Source: Candidatus Helarchaeota archaeon (GTDB lineage: Archaea; Asgardarchaeota; Lokiarchaeia; Helarchaeales; HEL-GB-A). Taken from it: a stretch of 19,651 nt of DNA. Position 1 is the stretch's first letter. Each line of letters begins with the position of its first letter. The position numbers were made by a program, and so were the translations under genes. Shown one piece after another: positions 1,792 through 19,079 of the stretch. Location: the NCBI GenBank assembly GCA_013375405.1, contig JABXJU010000070.1:1-19651 (forward strand), read 5' to 3'. The notes under the pieces are model-generated. The model was not told where the DNA came from. It searched no databases and worked only from the letters and a program-made list of their open reading frames with translations.

Positions 1792-3348
1792 ATGTTCAAG
1801 GACGAACTCATAAATAGAACTAAAGAATTAATCTCTTTTGTAGAAACCCCTCAAGAAATAGCAAATTTAATGGTAGAACTAATTTCTAAACCGAGAAATT
1901 GTGTATTATTAGATACTGGTTGTGGCAGAGGTATTTTTTTAAATAATCTCATAGAAAACGGGTTCAATAATATTGAGGGTATTGAACTAAATAAGGAAAT
2001 GTATGATTTTTGCAAATCGACTTATGATGATGTAACAATATATAACAAAGACTTTTTGATTTGGAACCCTTCCAAGAAATATGATTTGATTATTGGCAAT
2101 CCACCTTATGCACATTTTAACTCTCTACCACCTGAAATACAAGAAGAAGTTTTTAATATTACAAAAACAAGAGAATCTGATATTTATTATGCATTCATAA
2201 TTAAATCTATTGAATTGTTAAAAGAAAATGGTGAGTTAATTTATATTGTTCCTTATGGATTCTTTTATAATACTCATGCAAAAACAGTAAGGAAAAAAAT
2301 ATTAAAAAATGGATATATTAAAACTGTAATTGACCTCGATGAAACACGTTTATTTCATGATGAACACCCAGAAACCATTATTTTTAAATTTCTGAAGGTT
2401 AAACATAAAAAACCAGCGAAAATAGAGATTTTGCGTGTAAAAAATAGAAATGCGCGACCTCCAGAAATATTTCAAAAAGCTTTTGATTCTTTAACTAGAA
2501 AAGAAGAAAATAAGCTTTTCATTTATCACCAAAAGCCGCAATTTACCGATTATGAAGATGTTTGGTCTACATTTCCTCAAATAGCAATTCCAGAATACAT
2601 GAAATTAAAGAATATCGCTTATATTGGAGTTGGATTAGTTTCTGGTTTTGATTTAGCCTTTAGGATCAATGATGATGAAGGTGAAAATTTTAATGAAGAA
2701 GAAAGGAAACTTGTTTTTAAATTTGTAAAAGCATCTAATTGTAAAGGCTTTTGGGTAGATGGCTCTGTAAAATACGTTCTTACAGATGAGAGAATGCAAG
2801 GGGAACATGAAATATCTAAAAAATGGCCAAATATTTATAAAAGAATTATACCACACAAAGAAAAGATGTCCAATAGGTATTTACCAAATAATAAAAAATG
2901 GTTTCATTGGCAGGCATTGAGAAATAAAACAACAATGGAAAAATATATGAAATTCCCGAAAATATTCGTTCCTACGTTGGATAGAAGTGAAAAAAATAGA
3001 TTTAGTTTGAGTACTGAAAGTGTTTATCCATCTGGCGATGTTTTATGTATAATTCCCCTCAAAATAGAACCTTTCTTTTTGCTCGGATATTTGAATAGTA
3101 ATTTCTTTAGGGAATATTATCTATCTTATGGTGCTAGGAGAGGGCATAGAATTGCTTTTACCCAAAGAATATTATCAAATATTAAAATCCCTTCATTTTC
3201 TAGAGAAATAATGAATGAAATTAAAAGAATAACACAAGAAATCCTAGATGCTAAAGACCATTCTAAACGCAAATTGATTGATAAAGAAATTATGATTGCC
3301 TTTGAAAAGAAATCATTTGAGAAAACGGGTTTATTTAAGTTTATTTAA
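1792..3348 (+). CDS. N6-adenine DNA methyltransferase (TaqI-like, gamma class)
   Basis: 518-residue enzyme that transfers methyl from SAM to the N6 of adenine in a specific DNA site. Motifs appear in the order typical of gamma-class enzymes: a motif X-like ETPQEIANLM near residues 18-27, the SAM-binding LLDTGCGRG at 39-47, an acidic GIELN at 63-67, and the catalytic NPPYAHF at 103-109. The C-terminal half, from about residue 250, has the layout of a TaqI-type target-recognition domain (YIGVGLVSGFD near residue 280, and later LGYLNSNFF). Codon use is strongly AT-rich. No endonuclease gene adjoins it: the next gene is on the opposite strand and looks unrelated. It is either an orphan methyltransferase or the remnant of a restriction-modification system. 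The ATG is the only in-frame start after an in-frame TAA at 1783-1785. Confidence 0.9.
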   Translation: MFKDELINRTKELISFVETPQEIANLMVELISKPRNCVLLDTGCGRGIFLNNLIENGFNNIEGIELNKEMYDFCKSTYDDVTIYNKDFLIWNPSKKYDLIIGNPPYAHFNSLPPEIQEEVFNITKTRESDIYYAFIIKSIELLKENGELIYIVPYGFFYNTHAKTVRKKILKNGYIKTVIDLDETRLFHDEHPETIIFKFLKVKHKKPAKIEILRVKNRNARPPEIFQKAFDSLTRKEENKLFIYHQKPQFTDYEDVWSTFPQIAIPEYMKLKNIAYIGVGLVSGFDLAFRINDDEGENFNEEERKLVFKFVKASNCKGFWVDGSVKYVLTDERMQGEHEISKKWPNIYKRIIPHKEKMSNRYLPNNKKWFHWQALRNKTTMEKYMKFPKIFVPTLDRSEKNRFSLSTESVYPSGDVLCIIPLKIEPFFLLGYLNSNFFREYYLSYGARRGHRIAFTQRILSNIKIPSFSREIMNEIKRITQEILDAKDHSKRKLIDKEIMIAFEKKSFEKTGLFKFI

Positions 3349-9315: not shown

Positions 9316-10221
9316 TTATTTTAATGGGAAAAGATTGAATAAAAAGGTCGCTAACTCGAATGCATCTTTCTTATTTTTTATTTTAAGATCGGTGACATAG
9401 ACTTGAAATCCCAAATTTTGGATTTGGTCCTTATATATTTTCTGGGTCTCATCGATTATGATAATATCGGCTAGATTTTCTACACTCTTTGAAAATTCAA
9501 GAGCATTGATCTCATCATATCCTATTTTATTGAGTATGCTAATCTGGTCGTTTGTAAGTAAATTCAAATCAGTAATCGGAAAAATCGCAAAAATTGGACA
9601 GGGAACATCCTGTAATATTTTTTTCACGCCAGGAACTAGAAGCATAGCATGAAACGCAATCAAATCATTAGGTAGTAATAAAATATATTCAGATTTATTG
9701 GAAATTTTCTTCAAATTTTCATTGGGCTTTTTATTTTCAAAGCTATTAAAACTAATATCTTGAATTTTCTTATCTGGATTAGTCGCTTGAAGAAAATCAA
9801 GGATAGGGAAGGATTTTGTAAGGGTTTTTATTGTGATAGGTAAATTACCGTCGGAAACTGGTGTGATTTGAGCATCGATAGAAAAATTTTCGCGTATTTT
9901 ATCTAGTAAATCTGAAAGTTTTTTCCCTTTCGATGTTAGCTCAGTTAAGAAAATGGATATTGCGACATCTAAATCAGTAAATTGGAGATAAGGTTTCGAG
10001 TCAAATTTCTTGAGATGATTATACACCCGATACGTTTTGGGGTATGTGACCCGCATTAATGAATTTAATAACGCTCGTAAACATAAATTCATTTGTATTC
10101 CTGAGAGGTCGATGAGATTACTAGTATCAATCACAAATCCTAACTTTTCTTGAGGTAAATAAGTTACTATACTATACAAAATGTTTGATATCCGCGTGCC
10201 CGAATAAAAAATTAATAACAT
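9316..10221 (-). CDS. Divergent CofD-like (2-phospholactate transferase family) protein
   Basis: 301 residues. The overall order follows CofD, the enzyme that joins the lactyl- or enolpyruvyl-phospho-guanosine donor to Fo in coenzyme F420 synthesis. It has a Rossmann start (LLIFYSGTRISN where CofD has a GGTG loop) and a DLDVAISIFLTEL helix at the place of GDRDLATHIxRT. There is also a SIDAQITPVSDG strand corresponding to the VLPMSDD region. A later stretch, SEYILLLPNDLIAFHAMLLVPGVKKIL, corresponds to the ADxVVIGPSNPxxSIxPIL region. The key glycine loop and PSNP motif are poorly conserved, so it may not be a functional CofD. The ATG follows an AGGAAA ribosome-binding site. No other F420 gene is visible. 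Confidence 0.55.
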   Translation of the reverse strand: MLLIFYSGTRISNILYSIVTYLPQEKLGFVIDTSNLIDLSGIQMNLCLRALLNSLMRVTYPKTYRVYNHLKKFDSKPYLQFTDLDVAISIFLTELTSKGKKLSDLLDKIRENFSIDAQITPVSDGNLPITIKTLTKSFPILDFLQATNPDKKIQDISFNSFENKKPNENLKKISNKSEYILLLPNDLIAFHAMLLVPGVKKILQDVPCPIFAIFPITDLNLLTNDQISILNKIGYDEINALEFSKSVENLADIIIIDETQKIYKDQIQNLGFQVYVTDLKIKNKKDAFELATFLFNLFPLK

Positions 10222-10522: not shown

Positions 10523-10915
10523 GTAGTGGTTTGGTGAGAGTAAGGACGGTCGCCGGACGATTTTCGTCTGAGGAAGGTCCCTTCTCCCACCTAGGCAACG
10601 ATGTGGCGTAGCCACAGGACGAGAGTCTTCCTCTGAGAACAGAAATGACCCGTCCATGCATTAGATGATGATGATACGGCTGAGAAATTATTTCGAGAAG
10701 ACCTTTGGCGACGAGGGTTGAGATAAACCGTTGAAGAGATGTATGGAACCGTTGAAACAGCTCATGATCGTGGGAGCAAACCCAAATATATTCCTGATGA
10801 GGAGCCTAGCCGAATAGAATGGGTAGGGTGCACAGACCGATACCGTCAAGGATTCTTCAAGCAATTGAAATTCCTGAACAGAAAAGGGCCTACTCTACTC
10901 ACACCAGACCACCAT
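10523..10915 (+). ncRNA. rnpB: RNase P RNA (archaeal type)
   Basis: Catalytic RNA that removes 5' leaders from pre-tRNAs, about 390 nt long. The ends form helix P1: 10526-10536 (GTGGTTTGGTG) pairs over 11 bp with 10902-10912 (CACCAGACCAC). Conserved region I appears as GAGGAAGGTCC at 10570-10580 (usual form GAGGAAAGUCC), near the 5' end as expected. An ACAGAAA block follows at 10639-10645, and GGCGACGAGGGTTGAGATAA lies near 10706. The 3' part has GCACAGACCGATACC just before the closing strand. The region is clearly richer in G+C than its neighbours, as structured RNA in an AT-rich genome tends to be. A 60-codon frame inside it is an artefact. The roadblock-like gene starts 22 nt after the 3' end with no terminator visible between. 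The exact ends are approximate. Confidence 0.93.
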
Positions 10916-11905: not shown

Positions 11906-12022
11906 TAGCGGGAGGTGGAATTTCAGAGCATTAGAGCGCATCTAATACAGTTTTGAACCACCGATCTCGGGGTATCTCTAAAATATGAGCCCCGTGGGAT
12001 CTCCTGGCTACCCTATCCCGCT
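11906..12022 (-). tRNA. Initiator tRNA-Met (CAU) with two introns
   Basis: The acceptor strands are AGCGGGA and TCCCGCT with discriminator A. The A1-U72 pair and the D-arm GTAGCCAGGAGATCCC mark an archaeal initiator tRNA. The anticodon arm is CGGGG-CTCATAA-CCCCG after removal of a 10-nt intron at 37/38 (11974-11983). The T arm is GGTGG-TTCAAAT-CCACC after removal of a 32-nt intron at 59/60 (11920-11951). The T-loop intron has a textbook bulge-helix-bulge: central helix TTCA/TGAA, 3-nt bulges AAA and ATT cut after their second base, and an inner stem GTATTAGA/TCTAATGC. The anticodon intron is minimal, with CTC/GAG pairing. The mature length is 75 nt with no encoded CCA. Conserved tRNA bases and the T-arm junction support the call strongly. 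Confidence 0.95.
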
Positions 12023-12178: not shown

Positions 12179-13141
12179 ATGGATTTTACTTTCTTTATGA
12201 CTTTTGTCCCTCGGCTTAATTTAAGGAATCCAGTGGTTATTGGATATGAAAAATGCACTCCTAGGAATATTGAACTGCTTAAAGCGTATGAAGGGAAGCA
12301 GTTTGTACATAGTGGAAATTGGTGGAATATTGATCCGAAAAAGCGGACGTTGGAAGTTGTATTAGAGAACCAGGAAAAATTTTACTCTGAAAAAACCATA
12401 GGGTTTATGTCGCTTAATACTCCTGCAAGTTTGACAAATTATGATTACTGGAATATACCAAAAGCAATAAGAGAGAAAGCTATTCAGCAATGCCTTGAGA
12501 ATGCGAATTGGGCCGTTGAACATAGAACAGTTAAAGTGCCTATTTATTGTTCGTTAGAAGTTTCAACGTACGAAGAAGCTAGGTATTGGTTTCATGAAGC
12601 TCACGATTTAGGGCATGAATGTTTCTGCCGAGGGGTTGCAGAATTTTTACGAGATCCGAAAATCCGAAAAAAAGGGATCCAAACGATTTTTGAGCTCACT
12701 ATTGGTGCAAGAAGTATGTTAGCGGATTTGCCATTCCATTTATCTGGCCTTTCAAGTTTATACCTCCTTCCTATTATTGTTTATTTGGGGGCGACTTCAG
12801 TGGATGGGAGTACGCCAGTAACATCAGCTTTGGCCCGGGGCACGGTTTATACGTCGGATGGAAAGGGCATAAAAATAAGGGATTTGAAGAAGTGGGACTG
12901 TTCCTGTGAATTTTGTAGAAATTTCGGAGGAGACATAATCGAAGAATTTAATATGAATCGCCTCGCGCGAGTTCACCATAATATTGCAATTTTTAACGAG
13001 AAAATTGAAGCTATCAATGCATGTAAGGATAAAAAAGAATTAGCTGAAACAATTAAAAATGAGATTTCTCAAACTGAATCCAAATACTACCAAAGACGGT
13101 GGGAGCAGGCTTTGGAGTTAGAAAAAAAGTTCTCGAAGTGA
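12179..13141 (+). CDS. TGT-superfamily enzyme, possibly DpdA-like (DNA/tRNA guanine transglycosylase)
   Basis: 320 residues. The C-terminal part of the catalytic barrel has GATSVDGSTPVTSALARGTVYT (205-225 region), matching the nucleophile segment of tRNA-guanine transglycosylases (candidate Asp209). The zinc site CSCEFC (Cys241, 243, 246) has its histidine in VHHN (266/267). The first half lacks the usual TGT start, and the GGLAVGE loop of tRNA enzymes is replaced by HLSGLSSLYLLP. This resembles DpdA, the paralogue that inserts 7-deazaguanine into DNA, more than archaeosine-forming TgtA. No PUA domain is encoded. The stop is TGA at 13139-13141, after which the same frame stays open for 64 more codons. 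Superfamily is fairly sure; substrate (DNA or tRNA) is inference. Confidence 0.75.
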   Translation: MDFTFFMTFVPRLNLRNPVVIGYEKCTPRNIELLKAYEGKQFVHSGNWWNIDPKKRTLEVVLENQEKFYSEKTIGFMSLNTPASLTNYDYWNIPKAIREKAIQQCLENANWAVEHRTVKVPIYCSLEVSTYEEARYWFHEAHDLGHECFCRGVAEFLRDPKIRKKGIQTIFELTIGARSMLADLPFHLSGLSSLYLLPIIVYLGATSVDGSTPVTSALARGTVYTSDGKGIKIRDLKKWDCSCEFCRNFGGDIIEEFNMNRLARVHHNIAIFNEKIEAINACKDKKELAETIKNEISQTESKYYQRRWEQALELEKKFSK

Positions 13142-13638: not shown

Positions 13639-14466
13639 ATGAGAGTATTGTGTTTGAATTGTGGATGGAACGGGCCCATATCATTTACCGAAGCTCGAAA
13701 AATAAGGCTATATAAAAAATTTGATTGTTCCAAATGTGGTCAAGGTGAATCAAAGAATTTTAAGTTGGAGGAACCAATTCCCAATAAATTAGAAACAGGA
13801 GTTTTCATGCTAGAGGAAGAATTACGATATGTTTTGTTAAATACAATTTTTGAACAAGGAGTAATTGTTTGGGATTGTCGACCTGAATTCGGCAAATGTC
13901 CTGATCCCGTCGAATTTGAGGGAATCCTTTTTGTCCCTAAAATTGGAGATATTCCCGTATTCCTGAATAAGAGATTTTGGGAGATAGAGTTAAAATTTGC
14001 TAAGTTACGGTGTAATTGGGTAACAAAAGCTCAACAGTTTGGCGCGAATCGGGATGACGTGCGTATAGAAGAAGCACAAAGTAATATGTTTTTAGACGGG
14101 GGAGGAATTTTACTAGTAATGTCAGAACCGCCACCGACAACCGTTGGAATTGACCGTATAATAGCCACTAAGAGAGAAGATTGTGAGGCGCAGCTTGATT
14201 TAAAGTACCGAGAATTAATTAGACAAAATAAAATTTTGTATGAAATAATGATTTTCAATTCTAAATCATTCAAAGAGCTATGGGGTAAAATCTTAAGGGG
14301 AGGACGTGGTGGCAGAAAGCGTCGTGGTGGAGAACTTATTCCATACAAACGGTTCCCGATAGCGCAAGTTCAAAAGACATTCCCTGAGAACACCTTTTAT
14401 TTTACATTAGAGCAAATTATGGAAGGAGAGCTTGCTAAACTTATTATAGGATTCTTGAGGGAATGA
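13639..14466 (+). CDS. Zinc-ribbon protein with nuclease-like D...ExK motif, paralogue 1
   Basis: 275 residues, family not recognised. The N-terminal zinc ribbon is LCLNCGW (Cys5, Cys8) with FDCSKCG (Cys30, Cys33). A conserved core follows: VWDCRPEFGKCPDP (77-90), GDIPVF (103-108), then WEIELKFAKLRC (114-125). Asp104, Glu117 and Lys119 give the D-x12-E-x-K spacing seen in PD-(D/E)xK nucleases, which is the basis for the nuclease suggestion. A later strand GGGILLVMSEPPP is followed by helices and a basic Gly-Arg loop (about 217-232: RGGRGGRKRRGG) that could bind nucleic acid. The next gene is a paralogue starting 1 bp after this stop, so the two surely form one transcript. Catalytic activity is inference. 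Confidence 0.7.
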   Translation: MRVLCLNCGWNGPISFTEARKIRLYKKFDCSKCGQGESKNFKLEEPIPNKLETGVFMLEEELRYVLLNTIFEQGVIVWDCRPEFGKCPDPVEFEGILFVPKIGDIPVFLNKRFWEIELKFAKLRCNWVTKAQQFGANRDDVRIEEAQSNMFLDGGGILLVMSEPPPTTVGIDRIIATKREDCEAQLDLKYRELIRQNKILYEIMIFNSKSFKELWGKILRGGRGGRKRRGGELIPYKRFPIAQVQKTFPENTFYFTLEQIMEGELAKLIIGFLRE

Positions 14467-14467
14467 A

Positions 14468-15340
14468 ATGTATAAAAATGACTTTAAACAAAAATCAAAA
14501 AATATTTCTAGGGCAGAAAGGAATGGTTTAGAAATTTGGTGTACTAATTGTGGGTTCCATCGCCCTGTTAATTACACAAAAATTCGAAAATTACGAAAAA
14601 ATAATGAATTCATATGTGAAAACTGCAAGATGAAAATTTTCCAAGTACAAACAGGTCAACCTTGCGCAATGAGGAGCATTGTTCCAACTTTGGAAAAGGA
14701 ACTTCGTGATTTTTTTCTGATTGGATTCGTTCAAAAAGAAATTGATGTTTGGGATTGTCAAGGTGAATTTGGGAAATCCCCCGACCCTATTATTATCAAT
14801 GGAATCCCGATGCGTATAGTCACTGGAGATATCCCGTTTTATTGGAAGGAAAAATATTATATCATTGAATTAAAATTAGCTAAATTGAATTGTGGTAAAC
14901 AGGGAGGACAAGGCATTTACACTGATAGACGGGAATTAATCTCATTGAGATCGAGTCAATGGAAAATGCTCTTAAGTGGAGTGGGAATTTTGATTATTGT
15001 CGTTGAACCAAAACCTTCCCAAATAGGACTGATTAGAATAGAGGGGAAAACGAAAGAAGATTGTCAGGAGTTAATTGAAAATTTATATCGCCAATGGATA
15101 GCAAATGATCTAATCCCTTATGATGTGTATATTTTAAATGGAGAACTCTTCAAAGAGTACTGGGAAAAATCACTGAGGGATAAGCAAACCAGATCTAGAA
15201 CGGTTTTTGGGCATGATGAGTACTTTAAAACTGTAACATTGAGAGACATAGATAAGTTAATCCCCGCAGCTAAAGTTTGCGTTAAATATTCAGAATTATT
15301 GAATGGAAAAATTATAGATGTTATCTTAGGTAGATTATAA
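14468..15340 (+). CDS. Zinc-ribbon protein with nuclease-like D...ExK motif, paralogue 2
   Basis: 290 residues and clearly a diverged duplicate of the preceding gene. It shares the zinc ribbon (Cys25, Cys28, Cys50, Cys53), the R-K-R helix between the cysteine pairs, and VWDCQGEFGKSPDP (about 94-107). It also shares GDIPFYW (120-126), the IIELKLAKLNC block (132-142) and the downstream GILIIVVEP strand, EDC helix and FKEYWEKSLR. Asp121, Glu134 and Lys136 keep exactly the spacing of paralogue 1, so the putative active site is conserved in both copies. It has about 17 extra basic residues at the N-terminus and lacks the Gly-Arg loop. A heterodimer or functional split between the copies is plausible but unproven. 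The stop lies about 80 bp before tRNA-Ile on the same strand. Confidence 0.7.
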   Translation: MYKNDFKQKSKNISRAERNGLEIWCTNCGFHRPVNYTKIRKLRKNNEFICENCKMKIFQVQTGQPCAMRSIVPTLEKELRDFFLIGFVQKEIDVWDCQGEFGKSPDPIIINGIPMRIVTGDIPFYWKEKYYIIELKLAKLNCGKQGGQGIYTDRRELISLRSSQWKMLLSGVGILIIVVEPKPSQIGLIRIEGKTKEDCQELIENLYRQWIANDLIPYDVYILNGELFKEYWEKSLRDKQTRSRTVFGHDEYFKTVTLRDIDKLIPAAKVCVKYSELLNGKIIDVILGRL

Positions 15341-15423: not shown

Positions 15424-15589
15424 GGTCCAGTGGCTTATGTGCTTTTGGGTTTGTACCCGAGCACGGCGACGCTTGGTTAAAGCGCTCGGCTGATATAGGG
15501 CGATATTTTGTCGCACTTTTGACACCGAGAGATCGTGGAGAGTTTCATATTTCGTGAAACTTGCGAAAGTCCGAATCCCACCTGGACCA
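15424..15589 (+). tRNA. tRNA-Ile (GAU) with three introns
   Basis: Acceptor GGTCCAG pairs with CTGGACC, discriminator A at 15589. Three introns are removed. A 33-nt D-loop intron at 14/15 (15438-15470) leaves D stem GCTT/AAGC and loop AGCTTGGTTA. A 28-nt intron at 37/38 (15496-15523) leaves CTCGG-CTGATAA-CCGAG, anticodon GAT. A 30-nt T-stem intron at 52/53 (15539-15568) leaves GTGGG-TCCGAAT-CCCAC. The T-stem junction is a perfect bulge-helix-bulge: TCGT/GCGA central helix, bulges GGA and AAG cut after the second base, inner stem GAGTTTCA/TGAAACTT. The anticodon junction has 3 of 4 central pairs and the stem AGGGCGA/TCGCACT. The D-loop junction also has 3 of 4 pairs, with a long GTGCT...AGCAC stem. 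The mature length is 75 nt. A T-run follows at 15598-15602. Confidence 0.92.
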
Positions 15590-16522: not shown

Positions 16523-16595
16523 TGGACCAGGCGGGACTTGGACCCGCGGCCTCCACGATGCGAACGTGGCGATCTTCCAGCTGATCTACTGGCCC
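16523..16595 (-). tRNA. tRNA-Ala (CGC)
   Basis: An intronless 73-nt tRNA. Acceptor GGGCCAG/CTGGTCC contains the G3-U70 wobble pair that identifies alanine tRNAs. D arm GATC-AGCTGGAA-GATC; anticodon arm CCACG-TTCGCAT-CGTGG, anticodon CGC; T arm GCGGG-TCCAAGT-CCCGC; discriminator A and no encoded CCA. Its 5' end lies 3 nt after the valS stop on the same strand, so it is probably released from the valS mRNA by RNase P. T-loop position 55 reads C rather than the near-universal T. Confidence 0.95.
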
Positions 16596-16598
16596 ACA

Positions 16599-19079
16599 CT
16601 ATTCTTCTAGTTCCCAATAAACTTCGAGTTTTAGATCTGGGATTTCAAAGTGATATTTCAGCTTCTCTGTTGGATCCTTATCTGTCAGCACAAGTTCATT
16701 GATTTTAAGGGTCCCTGCAACATCACTTATGATTTGGTCTGATCCCTCTAATTTATCAGAGTACTTAATTATTGCTCTTTTGATGAGTGTATTCAAAGGC
16801 ACACCGACTTGCGATTTTTCGCGCCGAAATTCACCAATGAGTTGGATTATCCAAGTCCCAATATATGAAATCTCCTCTTGAATTGCGTATTTTGGTTCAG
16901 GCCACGAGCATAGATGAATACTAGGGACTTTTTTATCTTTCTTAAAGAGTGCGTGATAAATATCTTCCGTTATAAAGGGTGCAACAGGTGCAAATAGTTT
17001 GATAGAATCCAAGATTACACGATAAATCGTATATTGTCCAGTACCTTTCTGATTACTATCTATATCTTTTGAATAGAGCTTATATTTTACTGCCTCCAGA
17101 TAATTATCGCAGAAATCATGCCAAAAGAATTTCCTAAATTCTAAAAGTCCTGCATGAAAATTGTATTTAGCAAAAGAATCGGTAACGATTTCGATAACGG
17201 TATTAAGTTTGCTGAGAATCCACTCGTCAATGGGATTCAATTGTAATTTTGCTTCATCTACTTGGGAAATATTAAAGTCTGCTAGATGTGCAGACGAAAA
17301 TCTGCAAGCGTTCCAAAATTTCGTTAAGAATCGAAGGCTATAAGTTATTTCTTTATAATTAAACGGGTAATCATCACCTAAAGACCCTATAGCGGCCCAT
17401 TGTCTTAGTGCATCAGCCCCATATTTTTCAAGAGGTTTTTCAGGTTCAATAACATTACCGTAACTTTTACTCATTTTTCTACCATCAGTACCTGCAACCA
17501 TACCATTAATCATTAAATCCCGAAAGCAAGGAAGTCCGGTCAATTGTAAGCACCGAAAAATTGTGTAAAATGCCCAAGTGCGGATAATCTCATAGCCTTG
17601 GGGTCTCATAGAACTCGGATAGGTTTTTTTAAAGAATTCGTCGTCCTCGGACCATTTCGCAATGATGAGGGGAGTAATGCTTGAATCTATCCAACAGTCA
17701 CAAACATCAGTAGTTCCCACTATTGGTCCCCCACATTTAGGACATTTCGCAACGGGTGGGGAATCATGGCGTGGGTCAATAGGTAAATCTTCTTCTTTTG
17801 CAGGGATGATATGATTACAGTTTTCGCAGGTATAGAAGGGGATAGGTGTCCCAAAAACGCGTTGTCGACTTATAACCCAATCCCATTCTAAGGCTTCCAC
17901 CCAATCTTCTAATCGTTTAATCATAGTTGGGGGAAACCAGCTCATTTTGTAAGCTGCCTCTAAAATATCTTCTTTAAAGGGACGAATGGAAATGAACCAC
18001 TGCTTGATAGGTAAATACTCTATTGGGGTCAAACAAGAACTTCTTTCAGTGTGAACAATTATCCTGTGGGAGAATTCTTCTTCTTTCTCAAGCAAATTCA
18101 TATCTTTTAAATCATTCACCATGGCTTCGCGAGCTTCTTCAATATTCATTCCCTGATATTTTCCAGCTTCTTCAGTCATTCTGCCATTTTCATCGATAGA
18201 AATAATAACAGGTAGATCATAGCTTTTTTGCCAAGTTATATCAGTTTCATCACCGAAGGTACAAACATAAACAATTCCCGTTCCGAACTCCATATCAACT
18301 TCCGGATCTTGAATGATAGGAACTTCACGATCAAAGAGTGGGAGTTTAACTTTCTTTTGCGATAGTTCATAATATCTTTTATCATCTGGATGAATTAATA
18401 CAGCGACACAAGAGGGTAATAATTCAGGGCGGGTAGTGGCAATGGTTGCATATCCTGAGTTGTCGGATAACGGAAGTTTAATATACCAAAATTTTCCGGG
18501 TTCATCAATATACCCCACTTCTTGTTTTGCAAGAGCTGTACGACATTGGGTACACCAATGAATGGGGTGATCACCTAGAAATAACCAACCTTTTTCAAAG
18601 AAATACAATAAGGATTTCTGAACCATTCGAAGGTAACGTTTGTCCATTGTTTTATAGGTGTAATCCCAATCTGTGGAATAGCCCATGTTATCAAATTGTA
18701 TAGTCATGGTTGAAATTGCTTCATTTGTCCACTCTATACATCTTTTCAGGAATTCTTCACGGTCATCTTTGGAAATTTTAAATTCTTTTTCTACTTTCAG
18801 CTCAGTTGGTAGTCCATGACAATCAAATCCTTGGGGGAAATAGACATTGTATCCCTGCATCCTCTTGAATCTTGCAGCGACGTCAATCCAAGTGTGATTT
18901 AAAATGTGTCCCATGTGTAATGTGCCAGAAGTGAATGGTGGAGGCGTATCTATAGAATAAATTTCCTTATCTTTGATATTAATATTGAATTTGTATATAT
19001 TATGGTCTTTCCAGTTCTGAATCCATTTTTGTTCAATTTCCTTGAAGGTATATCTTTTGGGAAGTTGAAATTTGGCCAT
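16599..19079 (-). CDS. valS: Valyl-tRNA synthetase
   Basis: 826-residue class I synthetase attaching valine to tRNA-Val, complete in the window. The Rossmann nucleotide motifs are HMGH (55-58, HIGH class, in PPPFTSGTLHMGH) and KMSKS (535-539). The inserted CP1 editing domain, with ATTRPE (214-219), clears mischarged threonine. A zinc knuckle is formed by CENC (418-421) and CPKC (446-449). DWVISRQRVFGTPIP (about 400-414) and DVCDCWIDSS are typical of the ValRS/IleRS group. The C-terminal anticodon-binding helical domain starts around 620. Bacterial ValRS has about 60-70 extra coiled-coil residues at the C-terminus; here they are absent, as in many archaea. tRNA-Ala(CGC) follows directly after the stop. 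Confidence 0.97.
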   Translation of the reverse strand: MAKFQLPKRYTFKEIEQKWIQNWKDHNIYKFNINIKDKEIYSIDTPPPFTSGTLHMGHILNHTWIDVAARFKRMQGYNVYFPQGFDCHGLPTELKVEKEFKISKDDREEFLKRCIEWTNEAISTMTIQFDNMGYSTDWDYTYKTMDKRYLRMVQKSLLYFFEKGWLFLGDHPIHWCTQCRTALAKQEVGYIDEPGKFWYIKLPLSDNSGYATIATTRPELLPSCVAVLIHPDDKRYYELSQKKVKLPLFDREVPIIQDPEVDMEFGTGIVYVCTFGDETDITWQKSYDLPVIISIDENGRMTEEAGKYQGMNIEEAREAMVNDLKDMNLLEKEEEFSHRIIVHTERSSCLTPIEYLPIKQWFISIRPFKEDILEAAYKMSWFPPTMIKRLEDWVEALEWDWVISRQRVFGTPIPFYTCENCNHIIPAKEEDLPIDPRHDSPPVAKCPKCGGPIVGTTDVCDCWIDSSITPLIIAKWSEDDEFFKKTYPSSMRPQGYEIIRTWAFYTIFRCLQLTGLPCFRDLMINGMVAGTDGRKMSKSYGNVIEPEKPLEKYGADALRQWAAIGSLGDDYPFNYKEITYSLRFLTKFWNACRFSSAHLADFNISQVDEAKLQLNPIDEWILSKLNTVIEIVTDSFAKYNFHAGLLEFRKFFWHDFCDNYLEAVKYKLYSKDIDSNQKGTGQYTIYRVILDSIKLFAPVAPFITEDIYHALFKKDKKVPSIHLCSWPEPKYAIQEEISYIGTWIIQLIGEFRREKSQVGVPLNTLIKRAIIKYSDKLEGSDQIISDVAGTLKINELVLTDKDPTEKLKYHFEIPDLKLEVYWELEE

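Follow-up and report, generated by a model that had tools for sequence, protein, structure and literature searches.

Can an archaeal tRNA gene that is interrupted at three places be a functional gene, and what kind of splicing endonuclease would be able to process its transcript? The question is raised by positions 15424-15589 (plus strand) of the 19,651-nucleotide stretch of DNA analysed here (hereafter the window), for which the original prediction proposed a tRNA-Ile(GAU) gene with introns in the D loop (14/15), the anticodon loop (37/38) and the T stem (52/53). The reading that we favor, and to which we assign a very high probability on the strength of the features described below, is that of a functional Helarchaeota tRNA-Ile(GAU) gene whose three bulge-helix-bulge (BHB) introns would be spliced by a broad-specificity (alpha-beta)2 endonuclease.

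Structure of the tRNA-Ile(GAU) gene

The gene starts with GGTCCAG and ends with CTGGACCA, and all its parts are on the plus strand. Exon 1 (15424..15437) covers positions 1-14, that is, the 5' strand of the acceptor stem, positions 8-9, the 5' strand of the D stem and A14, and is followed by a 33-nt intron in the D loop at 14/15 (15438..15470) that is absent from the intron-less orthologue in a related genome (locus L202 of G084, described below). Exon 2 (15471..15495; positions 15-37) contains the anticodon GAT at 15492-15494 and borders on a 28-nt intron in the canonical position 37/38 (15496..15523). Exon 3 (15524..15538) comprises positions 38-52 and is separated by a 30-nt intron in the T stem at 52/53 (15539..15568) from exon 4 (15569..15589), which extends from position 53 to the discriminator A73. 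The 3'-terminal CCA is not encoded, and a T-run is located about 15 nt or less downstream. Removal of the three introns yields, as originally claimed, a perfect tRNA of 75 nt: 21 of the 21 stem pairs are present, all of them Watson-Crick, and ARAGORN identifies the product as tRNA-Ile(gat).

The same structure was obtained with a home-made intron-aware dynamic-programming scanner that aligns a sequence to a manually built profile of archaeal tRNAs, takes the pairing of stems into account, allows introns of 8-110 or 11-115 nt (depending on the version) nearly anywhere except in the acceptor stem, and applies a cost per intron and a bonus for BHB pairing. With no intron places supplied, the scanner assigned to the gene a score of 53.5 and the three introns at the positions originally proposed, and a scan of the whole window produced the identical parse. 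When the whole window was shuffled six times with its dinucleotide composition preserved, the top scores were between 28.3 and 33.9, and the real window, apart from its three tRNA genes, reached at most 33.5.

The unspliced gene is missing from both the Rfam matches (E-value up to 1) and the ARAGORN output. When run without the intron option, ARAGORN recognises tRNA-Ile(gat) only after the removal of all three introns; with this option, it reports nothing in the unspliced gene, recovers tRNA-Ile from each of the three forms without intron 1 in which intron 2, intron 3 or both are retained, and misreads the form that retains only intron 1 as tRNA-Thr. Tools without archaeal intron handling miss such genes, so that Asgard tRNA counts produced in this manner will be too low.

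Self-splicing or other mobile introns, of group I or group II, would be another source of inserted segments, and nothing beyond the very presence of introns speaks for them. At 28 to 33 nt, the segments are far too short, such that this possibility is excluded by length, and no Rfam match to such introns was detected down to E = 1 across the whole window; we regard the probability of this explanation as negligible and continue with BHB introns.

Exon-intron junctions and the precursor fold

Under the hBHBh' rule, each bulge of the motif has three bases: in the 5' bulge, two come from the exon and one from the intron, and in the 3' bulge, two come from the intron and one from the exon. By this rule, the exact BHB that had been predicted is found at the T-stem junction (52/53), which is strict, with 4 of the 4 central pairs (one of these G-U) and an inner helix of 6 out of 6 counted pairs. 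The other two junctions are relaxed, each with three of the four central pairs; the inner helix has 6 out of 6 counted pairs at the D-loop junction (14/15) and 5 out of 6 at the anticodon-loop junction (37/38). In the predicted fold of the precursor, each of the three introns forms a hairpin. The energy of this fold is -63.7 kcal/mol vs a mean of -46.8 kcal/mol for 200 shuffles (z = -4.4), and the precursor surpasses all 200 of these. Relaxed BHB motifs at the D loop, the T loop and other sites have been described previously (PMC6379350, in the part of the article available). Cleavage of the relaxed junctions at 14/15 and 37/38 by strict endonucleases would not be expected.

The relaxed character of the D-loop and 37/38 motifs gives some weight to the possibility that the gene indeed contains three introns but that one of the exon-intron boundaries, for example in the D loop, is located elsewhere, all the more as the D-loop introns of the orthologous genes from two related genomes map to 15/16 (G081) and to about 17/17a (G083). 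However, the boundary bases do not allow any sliding without an alteration of the mature sequence, and the spliced D arm, GCTTAGCTTGGTTAAAGC, is the same in the window, G081 and G083, and shows a single change in the intron-less gene of G084. A misplaced boundary therefore appears unlikely, and we retain the gene structure with introns at 14/15, 37/38 and 52/53.

Host lineage and orthologous genes

The window host appears to be best placed among the Helarchaeota, within the Asgard archaea, judging from the names of the matches of one protein and from the similarity of valyl-tRNA synthetases (ValRS). The CofD-family protein encoded at 9316-10218 (minus strand) has 43 matches, with up to 80% identity; most of the named ones come under 'Candidatus Helarchaeota archaeon' or Promethearchaeota, and two entries bear the name Deferrimicrobium. 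These named matches narrow down the originally suggested 'Asgard-like' genome to Helarchaeota. The window ValRS (16599..19079, minus strand) is 81% identical to that of G081, the closest relative, 65% identical to that of G083 and 61% identical to that of G084; the identity to the ValRS of Lokiarchaeota bin60 (G001) is 60% over the first 578 residues.

With the ValRS gene as the synteny anchor, the order ValRS - tRNA-Ala(CGC) - tRNA-Ile - transglycosylase-like gene is conserved in G081 and G083. The tRNA-Ala(CGC) gene (16523..16595, minus strand) is intron-less in the window, and its syntenic copy contains one intron in G083 and two introns in G081. The CAAX-protease and zinc-ribbon genes that are located between or beside the syntenic genes of the window were not detected in the corresponding regions of G081 and G083.

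The intron-less tRNA-Ile(GAT) of G084 is identical to the spliced window tRNA in 65 of the 75 positions. Seventeen of the 21 stem pairs are unchanged between the two, four are changed on both sides and none is broken; the four compensatory pairs include two in the acceptor stem, one in the anticodon stem and one in the T stem, the last falling in the stem that is interrupted by intron 3. The tRNA-Ile gene of G081 carries a 28-nt intron at 15/16 and a 37-nt intron in the variable loop, and lacks introns at 37/38 and in the T stem; that of G083 carries a 28-nt intron in the D loop near position 17, with a full central helix, and a 23-nt intron at 37/38. Compared with these three genomes, the T-stem intron of tRNA-Ile is present in the window only; a 30-nt intron was likewise parsed at 52/53 in tRNA-Val(GAC) of G081.

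These comparisons are relevant to a different interpretation, under which the locus is a decaying tRNA-Ile pseudogene with three chance insertions that remain unspliced, whereas a second, intact copy is functional. Such an interpretation can draw on the facts that the gene is known from DNA alone and that the window genome might harbor other copies of tRNA-Ile. It is hard to reconcile with the 21 intact pairs, including the four double-sided compensatory changes with respect to G084, with the BHB-like pairing at the ends of every insertion, or with the presence of introns in the gene located in the same place in two relatives, G081 and G083; furthermore, there is only one tRNA-Ile(GAT) among the 34 parsed tRNAs of G081. 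We consider a pseudogene highly unlikely and treat the locus as a functional gene.

The splicing endonuclease in Asgard relatives

Matches to PF01974 were detected in 226 of the 227 Asgard genomes, mostly two per genome, consistent with an (alpha-beta)2 enzyme. G083 and G084 encode one catalytic subunit and one second subunit each; in G081, the search with PF01974 recovered the second subunit and did not find the catalytic one, perhaps due to incomplete assembly. The best structural match for the catalytic subunit of G084 is the Aeropyrum pernix endonuclease 3p1z (5e-48), followed by 3ajv, which is near-identical in sequence, the Sulfolobus tokodaii enzyme 2cv8, and 2zyz. The alignment of the G084 protein with 3p1z is ungapped through the crenarchaea-specific loop, with K44 of A. 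pernix aligned with the lysine of GIRKPK, and the Methanopyrus kandleri enzyme 5x89 shows a deletion at the loop site in the same alignment. In this alignment with the A. pernix (alpha-beta)2 endonuclease (3p1z; PMC6379350, PMC12397907), the catalytic subunit of G084 displays the Lys-Pro-Lys/Arg signature and the Tyr-His-Lys triad. The general pattern of the loop is a conserved Lys (K44 in A. pernix), then Pro or Val, and then Lys or Arg.

We read 50 endonuclease loci, namely, the 30 best-scoring ones of the PF01974 search, in which 226 genomes had a match, and 20 from the search of the relatives, and found the loop with Lys-Pro-Lys/Arg in all 40 Asgard catalytic-subunit loci and in none of the 10 second-subunit loci. 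The loop is also present in 120 of the best 120 among 2141 homologues, several of which are named Helarchaeota. In crenarchaea, the loop and its lysine have been reported to widen the specificity of the endonuclease (PMC6379350, PMC12397907); the words 'Asgard' and 'Lokiarch' are absent from the main texts of these articles. A broad-specificity (alpha-beta)2 endonuclease, as implied by the original prediction, is supported by the presence of two subunits and of the loop with its lysine, read in the relatives rather than in the window genome. Typed by this loop, the Asgard catalytic subunits examined would all be of the broad type, and the closest relative contributes a second subunit only.

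The same loop is present in G084, which has far fewer introns (see below), so the loop can be thought to permit introns without dictating their number; by itself, the loop, which is Asgard-wide among the subunits examined, does not explain the low intron count of G084 compared to G081 and G083. A convergent origin has been suggested for the analogous loop of eukaryotic TSEN2 (PMC12397907, in the part available). The finding of the crenarchaeal-type loop in every Asgard catalytic subunit examined makes inheritance of the TSEN2 loop worth testing.

Predicted processing of the precursor

We infer the following course of transcription, cutting, ligation and intron removal. Transcription of the tRNA-Ile gene would produce a single precursor, about 166 nt long without its leader and trailer. 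In this precursor, the hairpin of each intron would bring the adjoining exon ends into contact to form a BHB. The two-subunit (alpha-beta)2 endonuclease, given its broad specificity, would cut the six junctions, and a ligase would join the four exons to produce the 75-nt tRNA. The BHBs engage exon bases of the D stem, the anticodon loop and the T stem, and hence the folding of the cloverleaf and splicing can be predicted to compete locally; removal of the introns is probably sequential.

tRNA introns in related genomes

To place the gene in context, we surveyed the tRNA introns of related genomes with the same scanner; the survey loci were seeded by Rfam tRNA matches, which creates a bias against the most-split genes, and all counts were made at scanner scores of at least 45. 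In G081, 30 of the 34 parsed tRNAs contain introns (at least two in 18 of them, and three in 2), for 50 introns in total, 9 of these at 37/38. In G083, introns are present in 25 of the 35 parsed tRNAs (at least two in 12 of them, and three or four in 3), and 12 of the 41 introns are at 37/38; this count excludes an array of 20 tRNA genes (L123) and the elongator tRNA-Met with three introns, whose score of 35.7 is below the cut-off. Half of the 32 tRNAs parsed in G084 (16) have introns, 3 of them two or more (two with three, both doubtful), and 12 of the 21 introns are at 37/38. G122 is probably a Lokiarchaeial genome, judging only by the resemblance of its ValRS to that of G001; 23 of its 27 parsed tRNAs (loci L170-L198) carry introns, mostly one each at scattered positions (2 with two or more), and the 26 introns include 4 at 37/38 and 20 that are 26 to 35 nt long.

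Among these parses, the variable-arm positions in class II tRNAs (Leu, Ser) and some two- and three-intron structures with scores of about 45-50 (for example, rows L200 and L164) are doubtful, and one G083 row with the anticodon AGA probably reflects a misplaced intron; eight genes carry at least three introns at scores of at least 45, and of these only the tRNA-Trp of G083 was checked by hand against a relative. The survey places the tRNA-Ile gene of the window in an intron-rich lineage in which it is not out of character.

For the 27 anticodons common to G081 and G083 (with CAT left out, duplicate anticodons represented by the best-scoring gene and neighbouring positions scored as different), 8 intron positions occur in both genomes, 33 in G081 only and 22 in G083 only; the 55 unshared positions include scanner errors, so that the turnover is overstated to an unquantified degree. 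This comparison suggests that the tRNA intron content turns over fast between the two genomes, and, with such apparent turnover between relatives, the group is well suited as a natural experiment for following the gain and loss of tRNA introns.

The possibility that the window introns spread by copying was considered and found no support. In a comparison that covered 143 introns and 5906 pairs with comparable lengths, the most similar window pair reached 0.53, below the shuffled maximum of 0.59; this applies to four of the five window introns, the 10-nt one being too short. A small number of pairs within genomes do show clear similarity, such as the introns at 59/60 of the Trp and Leu tRNAs of G083 and those at 59/60 of two Ala isoacceptors of G081, so that, outside the window introns, intron copying may happen in the group.

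In the array excluded from the G083 count (L123 7508-11784, minus strand, contig 3), 20 tRNA genes were parsed within 4.3 kb, and 8 of their 13 parsed introns are at 37/38. The array adjoins large genes for secreted-looking proteins, one with a fibronectin-type match, and encompasses a 219-aa open reading frame for which only weak DNA-binding or transposase matches were obtained. This array is perhaps a second, foreign or mobile set of tRNAs.

A four-intron tRNA-Trp

The gene checked by hand against a relative, the tRNA-Trp(CCA) of G083 (L130 1684-1904, minus strand), spans 221 nt, of which 147 nt belong to four introns: 30 nt at 15/16, 61 nt at 37/38, 28 nt at 43/44 and 28 nt at 59/60. The D-arm intron was placed by the scanner at 12/13 and reset to 15/16 on the basis of the intron-less D arm of G084; the survey tally and the comparison of positions between G081 and G083 still count it at 12/13. 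The spliced tRNA of 74 nt is read by ARAGORN as tRNA-Trp(cca) and is identical in 61 of the 74 positions to the spliced tRNA-Trp of G084, in which the 37/38 intron is the only one. Between the two tRNAs, six stem pairs are changed on both sides in a compensatory manner, and the only mismatch, T.T at 13-22, is common to both. Three introns are given as the maximum for an archaeal tRNA in the available parts of PMC8450103 and PMC4033280, and our literature search, the coverage of which did not extend to the supplementary intron list of PMC11291895, retrieved no archaeal tRNA with four.

Comparison with known systems

Asgard tRNAs rich in introns, including multiple and non-canonical ones, have been known since 2024: in Atabeyarchaeia and Freyarchaeia, which are also Asgard archaea and belong to different classes, more than half of the tRNA genes contain multiple introns, often at non-canonical positions (Nat Commun 2024, PMC11291895). 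This was the only report on Asgard tRNA introns recognised in our literature search, and the endonuclease is not discussed in the part of it available. The statement in the original prediction that triple-intron tRNAs are known mainly from Thermoproteales is thus out of date.

Thermoproteales resemble the window in that their tRNAs contain short BHB introns, three at most, in both canonical and non-canonical sites, with 71 introns in 46 tRNA genes in the case of Pyrobaculum calidifontis (PMC8450103, in the part available), and resemble the Asgard relatives in possessing a loop-bearing (alpha-beta)2 endonuclease, but represent a distant crenarchaeal lineage. Like the window gene, the tRNA-Ile(UAU) of Cyanidioschyzon merolae contains three introns in the D, anticodon and T arms (PMC9602550, in the part available); this is a red alga and the anticodon is UAU, so the case is presumably independent.

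As far as our literature search reaches, the Helarchaeota case, the loop in all examined Asgard catalytic subunits and the four-intron tRNA are new. Helarchaeota can now be listed with the Asgard lineages whose tRNA genes are heavily split, and a possible cause can be read in the loop of the endonuclease. We tentatively suggest, as a possibility short of an even chance, that the Helarchaeota tRNA sets are among the most intron-fragmented known, with up to four introns per gene, and that, the loop being shared across Asgard archaea, the TSEN2 loop could be inherited.

Other genes in the window

The window encodes a second split tRNA gene, for an initiator-type tRNA-Met(CAT) (11906..12022, minus strand; 117 nt, 75 nt when spliced), with a 10-nt intron at 37/38 (11974-11983) and a 32-nt intron at 59/60 (11920-11951). 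This gene does not figure in the original prediction and was missed by both ARAGORN and Rfam on the unspliced window; it has a scanner score of 55.8, is read by ARAGORN as tRNA-Met once spliced, and, in the spliced form, is identical to the spliced G083 orthologue in 68 of the 75 positions.

The Type II DNA methyltransferase encoded at 1792-3348 (plus strand) is Eco57I/TaqI-like, and no restriction partner was recognised in the neighbours scanned. Between the two intron-split tRNA genes, the plus strand at 12179-13138 encodes a 320-aa protein that, by weak matches, is a remote relative of the tRNA-guanine(15) transglycosylase TgtA, ArcS and DpdA; the gene occupies the same place in G081 (75% identity) and G083 (57%), and tRNA position 15 adjoins the D-loop intron of the window tRNA-Ile. 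Between this gene and tRNA-Ile are two tandem genes for similar-looking zinc-ribbon proteins (13639-14466 and 14468-15340, plus strand), which have no Pfam match. The same tRNA-rich neighbourhood also includes the archaeal RNase P RNA (10534-10904, plus strand; Rfam, 147 bits), which is present in G083 locus L041 as well.
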